A stretch of 64,000 bases of DNA from Oidiodendron maius Zn (taxonomy: Eukaryota > Ascomycota > Leotiomycetes > Myxotrichaceae), in assembly GCA_000827325.1 (NCBI GenBank), contig KN832891.1:558001-622000 (forward strand), written 5' to 3'. Shown piece after piece: positions 26,171-41,585 of this stretch (position 1 is its first letter; every line of letters begins with the position of its first letter). Below the pieces are notes generated by a model. It ran no database searches and had not been told where the DNA came from. It saw only the letters and a list, made by a program, of their open reading frames with translations. The position numbers and the translations under genes are program-made.

Positions 26171-26184
26171 ATAATAATTAGTTA
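26171..26184. repeat. left target-site duplication of the outer SINE
   Basis: ATAATAATTAGTTA is repeated exactly at 27484-27497, directly flanking the composite insertion 26185-27483. Confidence 0.75.
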
Positions 26185-26190
26185 TTATTA

Positions 26191-26201
26191 TTATTATTTA
26201 A
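26191..26201. repeat. left target-site duplication of the inner SINE
   Basis: TTATTATTTAA is repeated exactly at 26778-26788, on either side of the plus-strand copy and within the tail of the outer copy. Confidence 0.65.
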
Positions 26202-26777
26202 CCCAGAAGATGACTAGCTGGTTCACCTAGGACTGCTCCCCCTAGGCCTAGCTTGAACCCGGATTCTGCTCCCGGTTATCACAGCAGCGGTTTTTGCCTA
26301 ACCGAGAACCTTGGCCCCGGCTTCTGCTCCCGGATACCACAGCAGCGGTCGCCTAACCGAGAACCTGGGCAAAACCCTACCTTTCTAGAGGGGTGAGCCT
26401 CTAGAAACGACGAAGACCAAATCATTGATACGCGACCAAAGAGCTTGAGACTAGGGTGATAGGGCCCTACAACCGCGACCAATCAAGTAGCGAAGCGACC
26501 AGCCCCCAGAGGCCGTCTAGGAACAGAACTGAGTGAGAGACAGGGCTGGACACCAGAGGCAGGGACAGTGGTCTGATCCCAGGGAGAAGGAGGAAGTTTG
26601 GTTCAGAGTTGCCACTGGACGAGTTTACCTAGGCCTCCCGATTATTTGCCTGTATTACAAGGGGGTATGCATATCAGTGAGGATTCTTCCGAGAGGTTGC
26701 GTTAGCCTTTGTATATAGGATATTATTGTATAGAAGTACCGCGGCTTAGCCATTGCGGAGGATAATAATAATAATAA
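26202..26777 (+). mobile_element. inner SINE copy, 5'-truncated, opposite orientation
   Basis: This plus-strand copy starts CCCAGAAGATGACTAGC, lacks the tRNA-like head, and ends GCGGAGGATAATAATAATAA. It matches the body of the outer copy in reverse orientation closely (my hand comparison over roughly 300 bases suggests about 95% identity). The 11-bp duplication TTATTATTTAA flanks it. 5' truncation is typical of target-primed reverse transcription. Together the two copies make what looks like one long palindrome. Confidence 0.7.
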
Positions 26778-26788
26778 TTATTATTTAA
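26778..26788. repeat. right target-site duplication of the inner SINE
   Basis: Second copy of TTATTATTTAA, directly after the TAA tail of the plus-strand SINE. Confidence 0.65.
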
Positions 26789-27365
26789 ACTCCGCCTAGC
26801 CTGCAGCCGCGGTACCTCTATACAATAACATCCTATATACAAAGGCTAATGCAACCTCTCAGACAAGTCTTCACTGATATACATACCCCCTTGAAAATAC
26901 AGGCAATAATCGGGAGGGCTAGGTAAACTCGTCCAGTGGCAAACCCTGAACCAAACTTCCTTCTTCTCCCTGGGATCAGACCACTGTCCCTGCCTCTGGT
27001 TTCCAGCTCTGTCTCTCACTCAGTTCTGTTCCTAGACGGCCGTCGTGGGGCTGGTCGCTTCGCTACTTGATTGGTCGTGGTTGTAGGGCCCTATCACCCT
27101 AGTCTCAAGCTCTTTGGTCACGTATCAATGAATTGGTCTCGTCGCTCCTAGAGGCTCACCCTCTAGGAGGGTAGGGTTTTGCCCAGGTTCTCGGTTAGGT
27201 GACCGCTGCTGTGGTATCCGGGAGCAGAAGCCGGGGCCAAGGTTCTTGGTTAGGCAAAAACCGCTGCTGTGGTATCCGGGAGCAGAATCCGGGTTCAAGC
27301 TGGGCCTAGGGGGAGCAGTCCTAGGTGAACCAGCTAGTCATCTTCTGGGAGGCAACAGAAGAGGT

Positions 27366-27483
27366 GCCTAGAGCTGGATTCGAACCAACATCTTCACGTA
27401 CCACATCCTAGCAAGCGGGACGAGACTCGCTAGTCGCGACGACTTTTGGGACCCGAGGCGCACGACCACCACGCCATCCAGGC
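27366..27483 (-). ncRNA. tRNA-like head of the outer SINE (pol III A and B boxes)
   Basis: On the minus strand GCCTGGA at the 5' end can pair with TCTAGGC at the 3' end, as in a tRNA acceptor stem with one G-T pair. An A-box-like TGGCGTGGTGG lies at 27466-27476, with one mismatch to the core consensus. An exact B box GGTTCGAATCC lies at 27376-27386 within a TTCGAAT T-loop flanked by pairing GTTGG/CCAGC-type arms. The spacing between the boxes is longer than in a normal tRNA, and I could not draw a proper anticodon arm, so it is tRNA-derived rather than a working tRNA gene. Confidence 0.62.
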
Positions 27484-27497
27484 ATAATAATTAGTTA
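27484..27497. repeat. right target-site duplication of the outer SINE
   Basis: Second exact copy of ATAATAATTAGTTA, directly abutting the tRNA-like 5' end. Confidence 0.75.
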
Positions 27498-27851: not shown

Positions 27852-29333
27852 TTAAACATTCTCCTGCTCACAGACACTAAGTCTGAGCAAATTGAGAAGT
27901 GATATTAAGTCCGTATTTGGGAATGGGCGAATTGTCAAGTCGTTTTCTATCCACGCAGTCAACGGCTCCGCCTCGCGATAGACAGGCCACTCATGACCAT
28001 CTAGAGACGTCGGCAAACCATTTAGTGCAAAAGATATCCAAGCGGATTGCATCAATTGCGATATTTCCTCATCAACATGGTCATGGCCTCTATCCTCCGT
28101 CAACGTGCCAAAGATATAGCGTATTTCAGATGTGTGTTTAACCAAGTCATTCGTTAGTCTCGCGCCAGGCGCGCAACGATTGAAATGAAAGTGATAAACA
28201 CTATATCCAAGAGCGGCAAACTTTCGTGCACTGTGCAGAGCAGGCTCACTGAAGATAGCGGTCGTGAAGAGCTTATCGATGCGTTCGTATAAAGTTAGGT
28301 CTAACGATTCAAGATATTCCAGAGCTCGGGAGCTCATATGCCCGTATAGGTTATGCGCCAGCTTCTCCAGAACATCATTGTTGTACGAACCGCTAGGCTT
28401 CAGAAAGTATCGCGCCTCATTTTCAACGCAGCCCATCATCACAGGCACATTAGAAGGCCACCCTGGAAATCCCTCTTGCACGATCTTACCATCCACTACG
28501 GGTCGCCAGATAAGATTTGCTGGAGTATGGATTCGACCTGGAGGAGGGGGGACTCCGCAGAGTTCGTGTGACGCATCTCTAATAACATCGGTTGGGATTG
28601 CCCGGAGCTTTGAAAGGTCGTGAGTATCTAGTCGATTGAAGAGAGTTTCCGAAGCCTGCCATGTTCGATCAAAAGACTGGGATGGAAAAATGGCGGGATC
28701 TCCAAAACCTGCGCTTTCCAAAATTACGCGATGGAACAGACCATGTGCACCAGGGCATGACATCAAGGTCCGAATAGAATGAGCGCCAGCAGATTCCCCA
28801 AAAACAGTCACTTTCCCTGGGTCACCGCCAAATGAGATGATATTCGCTTGCACCCAACGAAGGGCTGCAATTTGATCTTCAATCCCAAAATTTGCACCGA
28901 CCTCAGGATGTGCTAAAAATCCGAAGGCCCCAAGCCGATAGTTGAAGGTTACAAGTACCACATCTCGAAGCGCCAGATGCGATCCGTCATATCCATCTTC
29001 TGAACCTGCACCACCAAAAAATCCCCCGCCATGGATCCAGACCATCACAGGGCGTTTTGCCAATGCATCACACCTGCGAGTCCAAACATTGAGGTATAGG
29101 CAGTCCTCGCTTTGTGTGGGCTGGCGGACATTAAAGCACGCACCGATTGTTTGAGGACATATCGGCCCAAAGTTGGTGGCTAGTCGGACGCCACTCCATG
29201 GAGCTGCTGGGAGAGGACTACACCAGCGTCGTTCAGCAGTCGGAGGGGACGCATATGGTATACCCAAGAATTTGAGTACACCATCCTTCGACAATCCTTG
29301 GAGTAATCCTTCACTGACACTGATCCGCGACAT
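27852..29333 (-). CDS. carboxylesterase, intracellular, single exon
   Basis: Type-B carboxylesterase of 493 residues without a signal peptide or intron, so probably cytosolic. Motifs: FLGIPYASPPTAERRW; EDCLYLNVWT; MVWIHGGGFFGGAG with the HGGG oxyanion loop near residues 101-104; FGGDPGKVTVFGESAGAHS with nucleophile Ser about 181; GCVENEARYF, the likely acid region; and VKHTSEIRYIFG with the catalytic His. The set is complete and the length slightly short for the family. It is divergent from the ADP-ribosylglycohydrolase-like gene across 660 bases. With the second esterase at 37.5 kb it suggests that the local pathway handles an ester or amide substrate. Confidence 0.9.
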   Translation of the reverse strand: MSRISVSEGLLQGLSKDGVLKFLGIPYASPPTAERRWCSPLPAAPWSGVRLATNFGPICPQTIGACFNVRQPTQSEDCLYLNVWTRRCDALAKRPVMVWIHGGGFFGGAGSEDGYDGSHLALRDVVLVTFNYRLGAFGFLAHPEVGANFGIEDQIAALRWVQANIISFGGDPGKVTVFGESAGAHSIRTLMSCPGAHGLFHRVILESAGFGDPAIFPSQSFDRTWQASETLFNRLDTHDLSKLRAIPTDVIRDASHELCGVPPPPGRIHTPANLIWRPVVDGKIVQEGFPGWPSNVPVMMGCVENEARYFLKPSGSYNNDVLEKLAHNLYGHMSSRALEYLESLDLTLYERIDKLFTTAIFSEPALHSARKFAALGYSVYHFHFNRCAPGARLTNDLVKHTSEIRYIFGTLTEDRGHDHVDEEISQLMQSAWISFALNGLPTSLDGHEWPVYREAEPLTAWIENDLTIRPFPNTDLISLLNLLRLSVCEQENV

Positions 29334-39762: not shown

Positions 39763-41585
39763 TCAGTATCCAACAACTATTCTAACTTCGACAACAGCAC
39801 TAATGCCGGACTCAACACTTTCTACTGCTTTCTTCATAACCTCCTCAAGCTCATCAGCTCTGTCCACTGTTGCGGTAAACAAATTCCCCCCAGCTGCGGC
39901 CTTGGCGATTCCAGCATAATCCGGCGTTGGCGCGAAGGAGATATGAAGTTCTTCGTTGGTGGCGCGAGACCCTTCGCCGTCCGGATGCACAAGGAGAAGG
40001 GACTTCCTCGGAGCATTCCAGCCATTGTTATTAAGGATGATAGTAAGGACTGGGATCTTATACCGCTGAGCAATCCAGTAGACGCTCCCAGGAACGCTAA
40101 ATAGATAACACCCATCTCCAACGATGCAGCAGACAAACTTTCCCTTCCCATTATTCTCCGCATCCGTGGCAAGCTTTATTCCCAGCATTCCACCTCCAGA
40201 CCAACCCAGTCCGCCGCCACCGCAATTAATCCAAGAGCCAGGTAAGGTAGCTTGGATCTGGTCAGCTATGAATGCGGTGTTTGTCACGGCTTCAATAGCC
40301 CATATCGTGTCTCTAGGCGCAATGCGGCGGATAGTTGCGGCAACGAAGGACGCTCCAAGGGTATTATCACTCCTTGGAGCCGCAAGACTAGAGATTTCGA
40401 TTAGACGCCCTTGGTGAGCTTCTGTCATGTCGCGCCAGCGTGATGTATATTCTCTTAGTCGACTAGAAAATTCTTTAGTTGCTTTGATGTATTTCGAGAG
40501 TTGCGTAATTGCCGTGAAGCTATCTGCCCTATAACGAGCTTCTGCAGACAAATAAAATAAAGGAAATTGTTGTTTAAGGGGATCGGCGTCAATATGGACT
40601 ACTTTTGCTTTCGCGGATGGACAACACTGCGTATTGATCCATGGCACATCACAATCCACAACTAGGATCACATCAGCAGTTCTGATACACTGATGTATCC
40701 CATAGCGAAATCCTAACCATGCTGGATGGTCTGCAGGGAAACACATATCACTCCCTGCCGTATCTAAAACCCGAATTCCTTTAACAGTATTGGCAAGTTC
40801 AACCAGCGCCGGAACGGTCTTCTTGTTTCTGCCACTATACCCAGTCACAATCAAAGGCTCTCTTGCTTCCACTATAGCCTTTGAAATCTCAGCAACTGCT
40901 TCCTCGTCAAGGGCTGACGGTGCCACTGGCTTCCAGTGAGCTTGATTCAGCTGATACGGATCTAGCTCCTCCTCCATGACTTCCCTCGCACCGCATAGGT
41001 ATACAGGTCCTTGCGGGGTGCTCAGTGCGAATTGTAGAGCGCGATTTACCATTTGTTTAATGTTTTTTCCTGTTTTGATCTCTGCCGTATAACGACAATA
41101 TTGCGCAACAATCATCCTCTGATCGTGAACGTCCTGGAGCCAGTGTATAAATTCCGTTCGAGACCCACGCAATTCCCCATCTAGAGTATAGGGCGAAAGG
41201 CCGGCAAAAATAAGAACTGGAGCTCGGCCAGCGGATGCATTATGAACAGCTTGGCCTAGAGCCTGCGTACCAACGTCGACATGGACGATAACACATTGGG
41301 GTTTGCCAGTCACCCGTGCGTACCCATCAGCCATAGATAGAGCAACCATCTGCATAAAGAACATTAGGATTAAGCCTGTACGGGATCGGATATAGAAAGC
41401 ATAACCTCATTCGGACAGGTAATGATGCGTGGAAATTGCTCCTTCTTAGTATTTAGCGCCTGAGCCATTGCCTCGAGAATACTTGGGTGATCTGAGCCGA
41501 GATTGACAAAGCAGTGCGAGACTCCGGCTTCCCAGAGTGCCTCGAGGAAGGCGAAAGATGCCGTATACCTATTCGGAGTTAACCC
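39763..41585 (-). CDS. ThDP-dependent enzyme, acetolactate-synthase-like
   Basis: Thiamine-diphosphate enzyme of the large acetolactate synthase/benzoylformate decarboxylase superfamily, about 580 residues. The exon near 41406-41585 reads YTASFAFLEALWEAGVSHCFVNLGSDHPSILEAM and ends ITCPNE, whose Glu is the ThDP-activating residue. A 56-base intron follows, then MVALSMADGYARVTGKP. The middle FAD-like domain lies about residues 200-340. The C-terminal ThDP/Mg motif is GDGCYLFSVPGSVYWI ... LNNNGW (GDG-X(n)-NN). The exact N-terminus is not settled, since no in-frame ATG splices cleanly to the first exon; one more small exon is likely. No carrier-type CoA domain is seen. The reaction is not assigned: decarboxylation, carboligation or C-C lyase activity are all possible. 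Divergent from the second ThDP gene. Confidence 0.82.

Follow-up and report, generated by a model that had tools for sequence, protein, structure and literature searches.

Two opposite SINE copies at the palindrome

The window, the whole stretch of DNA that we analyzed, covers 64,000 nucleotides of contig KN832891.1 of Oidiodendron maius Zn, and positions are counted from its first letter. It contains a carboxylesterase ORF (27852-29333, minus strand), a 533-aa ORF (39763-41364, minus strand) related to benzoylformate decarboxylase-type enzymes by PDB search (the same search with another window ORF gave no hit), and coding sequence for a fungal transcription-factor domain. The carboxylesterase ORF points towards a 1.3-kb palindrome at 26171-27497. 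An inverted-repeat scan of the window found palindrome arms of about 570 bp that nearly abut, as four arm pairs: 26202-26392/27159-27349, 26414-26506/27047-27139, 26511-26610/26942-27041 and 26609-26746/26805-26942, all far beyond chance.

Sequence comparison resolved the palindrome into two opposite copies of one SINE, in keeping with the initial annotation, which had proposed two nested SINEs. The outer copy (26777-27483, minus strand) is full length, judged by the many other genomic copies that match it end to end (query 1-706). The inner copy (26202-26776, plus strand) is 5'-truncated at family position 135, that is, it begins after the tRNA-like head and so lacks it, and it has a (TAA)n tail of its own. 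Its alignment to the outer copy runs to 575 columns, covers family positions 135-706 and shows a 92.3% match. Both copies hold an internal tandem duplication with 40-bp matching cores at 58-bp spacing (26252-26349, plus strand, family D3, in the inner copy; 27202-27299, minus strand, family D2, in the outer), as had been noticed earlier. A bulged hairpin lies at the 3' terminus of the inner copy (CCGCGGCTTAGCCATTGCGG, 26739-26758, plus strand), taken from folds of the identical young-subfamily sequence described below; the corresponding stretch of the outer copy (26792-26812, minus strand) has different letters and is still foldable.

Each copy has its own target-site duplication. The outer one (ATAATAATTAGTTA, 14 bp, exact) lies at 26171-26184 and 27484-27497, as first reported. 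Next to its first copy is the rest of the outer (TAA)n tail (26185-26201, minus strand), split off by the inner insertion. The inner duplication (ATTATTATTTAA) lies inside this remainder at 26190-26201 and recurs at 26777-26788, where it also forms the start of the outer tail; it is exact as described initially, at a length of 12 bp rather than 11, one base being ambiguous with the (TAA)n tail. When the inner element and one copy of ATTATTATTTAA were excised in silico, the minus strand of the reconstructed empty site read GCGGAGTTTAAATAATAATAATAATAACTAATTATTAT, an ordinary SINE tail and then the outer duplication; this supports nested insertion, the inner copy sitting in the tail of the outer one. 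Nesting alone fixes the order of events: the inner insertion came second.

Copies elsewhere in the genome

With the 706-bp unit as query, a search of the genome (58 contigs, 45.9 Mb in all) gave 44 matching rows, with 40 of 49 candidates scored. Three row pairs proved to be pieces of one copy, leaving 41 copies including both from the window, and a further search added two partial copies for a total of about 43. The 39 loci besides the window (L009-L047) were fetched with flanks of 300-500 bp. Full copies start with GCC[T/C]GGATGGCGCAGTGG (beginning at GCC[T/C]GGATGG), mutated in some, and end in GCGGAG plus (TAA)n, much as the initial annotation had predicted of copies at other loci, and copy-specific duplications, also predicted, are present. 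The SINE is non-coding, the longest stop-free stretch in any of the six frames of L014 being 67 codons. Its length of about 0.7 kb, which had been thought unusual for a SINE, is not so for a fungal one: SINEs in general measure 100-600 bp, and fungal ones are listed at 472, 500, 700, 800 and 900 bp in the excerpted text of PMC5063351.

An exact, copy-specific flanking duplication of 11-15 bp was found for 26 of the 30 copies tested; in the control, where the 5' flank of one copy was compared with the 3' flank of another, matches of at least 11 bp arose in 4 of 870 pairings. An exact duplication of at least 11 bp was absent from the other four copies, with L035 scored as a miss even though its flanks match by eye with one mismatch. 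The 30 were drawn from 41 aligned copies by leaving out the two window copies, four chimeras with a module termed R (below), and L026, L041, L042, L045 and L047, which had a broken 3' end, N gaps or rearrangement. Among the fetched loci, L034 too is truncated at its 5' end and has a 15-bp duplication to itself. The landing of a headless copy in an older one is an ordinary event in this family, which probably borrows the copying apparatus of a larger element.

These single copies bear on whether the palindrome might instead be a foldback (inverted-repeat) DNA transposon, whose two arms would travel together as a single unit. Nearly abutting arms of about 570 bp, inside one 14-bp duplication that brackets the whole, are what such an element would present. 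However, single copies with their own duplications occur at dozens of places, and each window arm has its own (TAA)n tail while one arm only has a head. The initial annotation had reasoned that in a true foldback element both arms would always be found together with one shared duplication; a minus-strand search of the 39 other loci with their 300-500-bp flanks (L041, L042 and L045 being interrupted by N) found no opposite second copy, and among the loci searched the opposite pair occurs only in the window. The nearest other opposite pair in the genome match list is 22 kb apart, on contig C26. We therefore reject the foldback transposon, on the ground of single copies each with its own duplication, as highly improbable, and the two nested SINEs of the initial annotation are upheld against it.

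Subfamilies and the order of insertion

Twelve copies (L014-L025) form a young subfamily, in which five are identical over 707 positions and each of the other seven departs from the majority at one or two. The inner copy agrees with the young-subfamily majority at all 570 of 570 positions, and the outer copy differs from that majority at 71 of 701. Against the majority of copies with the type-A head (one of two head versions, below) the outer copy differs at 48 of 703 positions, and the two window arms differ from each other at 39 of 567. Only 18 differences are private to the outer copy, so that part of its divergence reflects lineage.

A single insertion folded back on itself, by twin priming or by a template switch to the same RNA, could also place two opposite arms side by side. 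In favour of this proposal, LINE machinery is known to make 5'-inverted copies, and fused copies resembling template switches exist in this genome. Against it, the arms differ as just described, with identity to the young subfamily confined to the inner one; moreover, a complete 3' end and tail are present on both arms and the inner arm has a separate duplication. With two tails, two duplications and differing arms, we reject this explanation too as having hardly any chance of being correct.

Two successive, nested insertions of one tRNA-headed SINE family are almost certainly what the comparisons record. As a first step, a full-length copy with a type-A head would have entered ATAATAATTAGTTA on the minus strand. 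Later the A+T-rich (TAA)n tail of this outer copy would have been nicked, and a young-subfamily RNA copied there in the opposite direction. Reverse transcription would have ended early, some 570 bases in from the 3' end, and the resulting copy would be headless, with a 12-bp duplication of its own. An apparent foldback element thus becomes an ordered pair of retrotransposition events. A nested pair of SINEs is of a known kind, as are all its parts, and our literature search, which covered open-licence papers only, turned up no title or abstract dealing with this element or with a comparable nested pair of SINEs.

Several copies bear the marks of RIP-type mutation. In L046 there are 110 C-to-T or G-to-A changes over 701 positions and no changes of any other kind, and in L036, L037, L038 and L039 such changes make up 52 of 53, 57 of 59, 62 of 64 and 62 of 63, respectively. 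CpA and CpG sites account for most of these changes in the five copies, whereas there are sibling copies identical to one another. The outer copy is free of this bias, with 21 of its 71 changes being of RIP type.

The two head versions, A and B, differ at 29 aligned sites (alignment columns 5 to 90) in the stretch between the D and T arms, and the 35 aligned copies with a head comprise 12 A-like and 23 B-like. The outer copy has an A head, yet 15 of its 30 comparable body differences recur in L026, a copy with a B head; for the other copies displayed, 0 to 7 of 36 to 39 body differences were common to them and the outer copy. This apparent mixing in the outer copy and L026 hints at an exchange between head and body.

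The head and its promoter signals

The tRNA-like head of the outer copy (27363-27483, minus strand) has a long insert between its D and T arms. A plain tRNA scan of the window found no tRNA, and ARAGORN without introns called none of 14 heads; with introns allowed it called 12 of the 14, the outer copy among them. No isotype is assigned to the head, because those given by ARAGORN (Glu, Ala, Lys) differ between copies. Two sibling copies were scanned with the Rfam tRNA model RF00005 and both exceeded its gathering score of 29 (L009 with 34.9 bits, L014 with 30.7), their matched heads showing acceptor, D and T arms together with the long insert. The B box, GGTTCGAATCC, is exact in the outer copy (27376-27386, minus strand, read from 27386 to 27376) and in the young subfamily. 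A tRNA-like head with an exact B box, as the initial annotation had it, is borne out.

The A-box region of the outer copy (27466-27476, minus strand) reads TGGCGTGGTGG, changed from the TGGCGCAGTGG of other heads. The strict A-box pattern, TRGYNNARNNGG, has no match in the young subfamily; by eye, the family is one base off and the outer copy two. The SINE may be transcribed by RNA polymerase III. A run of five T in the sense strand (27256-27260, minus strand, equivalent to position 227 in the young subfamily) might act as an early polymerase III stop.

tRNA genes were considered as a source of the head through seven GGCCGGATGGCGCAGTGG sites resembling its first 27 bases, and no parental tRNA gene was found among them. 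Five of these, fetched in full (L133-L137), proved to be a second SINE family, which we describe below; the other two are known from 176-base stretches, one of them mostly N.

The pair as a putative hairpin locus

Transcription through the pair on the minus strand would yield a long hairpin, predicted to fold at -1147 kcal/mol, and read-through from the carboxylesterase ORF would read the outer copy in sense. The pair could accordingly be imagined as a working silencing locus, whose minus-strand hairpin would be diced into small RNAs matching the young subfamily. The orientation of the carboxylesterase ORF towards the pair fits this proposal, as does the identity of the inner arm to the young subfamily. 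Two loci in the genome match the Piwi domain and two encode Dicer dimerisation domains, and some A. fumigatus SINEs are reported as RNA-silencing targets in the excerpted text of PMC5063351. However, low folding energy is expected of any inverted repeat, one of the Piwi loci (on C7) is interrupted by stops in the frames examined, which may reflect introns, and the outer copy has a changed A-box region and its T5 run early on. Moreover, five identical and seven near-identical young copies point to recent spread. We regard a working silencing locus as unlikely.

The more particular proposal, that the nested pair is a natural hairpin locus supplying small RNAs directed at the youngest SINE subfamily, which has spread recently, we hold to be a long shot. 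The inner arm would there provide the young-subfamily sequence and the outer arm the complementary strand, with gene read-through transcribing both. If this were true, a silencing trigger would have been born from a single SINE insertion. Natural long-hairpin silencing is said to need further exploration (PMC9757828, in excerpt), and the pair offers a natural test of silencing by inverted SINEs where Dicer and Argonaute domains exist.

A candidate partner LINE

The second SINE family is about 560 bp long plus a tail, and its five full copies end in AGCGGAGTATAAA followed by TAA-type repeats, with flanking repeats of 13-16 bp in all five (counted with no shuffled control). It is likewise tRNA-headed, with a head core that differs from that of the first family. 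Comparison of the two families gave a score of 91 for the head (best of 300 shuffles, 38) and 105 for the body (best of 300, 64). At the 3' end the score was 43, against a best of 39 in 1000 shuffles.

The 3' end of an abundant, (TAA)n-tailed LINE (copy L068) scored 45 against the second SINE family (best of 1000 shuffles, 38), and five other copies of the LINE scored 34 to 46 (no shuffles), L088 reaching only 34. The second family may thus link the first SINE to the LINE, the best of 1000 shuffles being exceeded at both 3'-end steps. Compared directly, the LINE and first-SINE 3' ends were weakly similar, their score being reached in 48 of 1000 shuffles by two-letter blocks. With single-letter shuffles of 15 pairings (three LINE ends with five SINE ends), the young SINE score was reached in 86, 246 and 520 of 1000, that of the outer copy rarely (4, 12 and 17) and those of the remaining nine pairings in 191 to 838; neither kind of shuffle fully keeps dinucleotide content.

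In folds, the LINE (L068), the second SINE, the young SINE and the outer copy all end in a two-step 3' hairpin with a bulge of 2-3 bases on its 3' side; an exception is the old SINE copy L047, whose fold lacks the bulged form. Compared by eye, the lower stem reads CTGT/ACAG in the LINE as against CCGC/GCGG in the SINEs, such that two pairs differ on both sides. Stringent-type LINE/SINE pairs have a 3' stem-loop followed by a short repeat, and the I element ends in TAA repeats (excerpted text of PMC3747384). The LINE and SINEs described here likewise have a 3' stem-loop and short repeat, although, unlike those pairs, the LINE and the first SINE agree mostly in hairpin plan and not in sequence.

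The abundance of the LINE is seen in its 3'-end pattern, present at 83 places within three mismatches (reversed control, 0). Its reverse-transcriptase match contains stops in all eight fetched copies, and no intact helper was seen among these eight (30 of 104 matches were fetched overall). Two LINEs with long open frames, L069 and L072, were set aside as helpers, having no trinucleotide run of at least four units in the 2.2 kb downstream. Three more reverse-transcriptase matches are without stops (C4:1601921, C14:822098 and C40:73619).

Many 3' ends of the LINE lie within a few hundred bases of contig ends. A telomere-directed LINE was considered and rejected, at least two TTAGGG/CCCTAA units being found at none of the four contig ends read (C2, C5, C6 and C11; L138-L141). 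Three of these end inside near-identical LINE copies; in L139 the LINE gives way to other sequence, which continues to the contig end. We read the LINE-bearing contig ends as assembly breaks in near-identical repeats. With LINE sequence at three of the four ends and telomere repeats at none, young LINE copies may have been lost to such breaks.

The abundant (TAA)n-tailed LINE is the likely helper of the SINE. Both window copies would then probably have been made in trans by its proteins, which would recognise the bulged 3' hairpin.

Chimeras and a possible rearrangement

Further support for a common enzyme comes from R, a non-coding module of about 1.19 kb that forms a 5' extension of four SINE copies: L029 (C12, about 970 kb), L037 (C11, about 1547 kb), L038 (C11, about 1485 kb) and L044 (C11, about 17 kb). 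The start of R varies by no more than a few bases among the four; these chimeras carry a nearly complete SINE, and two of the four have their own 12- or 13-bp duplication round the whole R-SINE unit. R has 18 matches in the genome, 14 of which were fetched (four weaker ones were left out). Ten of the fetched copies are without the SINE, and five of these (L105, L106, L108, L109 and L110) are fused directly to the LINE; L104 reaches the LINE after an N gap, and L103 is fused to another LINE. L107 had no match to any of the nine sequences compared, and there is no direct fusion in L111 or L112, where the only relevant pieces are of the LINE 289 bases downstream and of the SINE 200 bases downstream, respectively. 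That R is joined to both SINE and LINE supports the view that one enzyme may copy both.

Fungal counterparts are found in the excerpted texts of three papers. Mg-SINE (Magnaporthe), SINE2-1_BG (Blumeria) and AfuSINE2 (Aspergillus fumigatus) are likewise called tRNA-derived there, and we liken the present family to them by description. AfuSINE2 has polymerase III promoter features and 4-14-bp duplications, and one A. fumigatus element has a trinucleotide repeat at its 3' end (PMC5063351). The 3' end of Mg-SINE is similar to that of the LINE MGL (PMC2104539), and a table in PMC3747384 gives partner LINEs for Mg-SINE and SINE2-1_BG. By those descriptions, the (TAA)n end, the length of about 0.7 kb and the two head versions set the present family apart from all three.

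The R chimeras resemble, in architecture, the MINE and WEIRD-MgSINE chimeras, in having a fixed non-coding 5' module on a SINE or LINE. WEIRD, a non-coding 5' module of 1.1 kb whose ends are fixed, is joined to truncated LINE copies or to a SINE, the whole being flanked by duplications, and two chimeras with a truncated Mg-SINE, one bipartite and the other tripartite, are given for Magnaporthe (PMC2104539, in excerpt). Unlike those, the four chimeras found here carry a nearly complete SINE.

The pair itself is modest; the surrounding family makes a good system for LINE-SINE dependence. The genome offers material for studying how fungal SINEs depend on LINE machinery: two related SINE families, a LINE with a similar bulged 3' hairpin, the R chimeras, unmutated copies beside RIP-type ones, and a possible inversion. 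The last concerns the other two R-SINE copies, S037 (plus strand) and S038 (minus strand), about 60 kb apart on C11. Their duplications have been exchanged, the 3' flank of each holding bases from the 5' flank of its partner, 14 bp in one direction and 15 bp in the other. This suggests either an inversion of about 60 kb (C11, about 1.486-1.546 Mb) by recombination between the opposite copies, or a misassembly.
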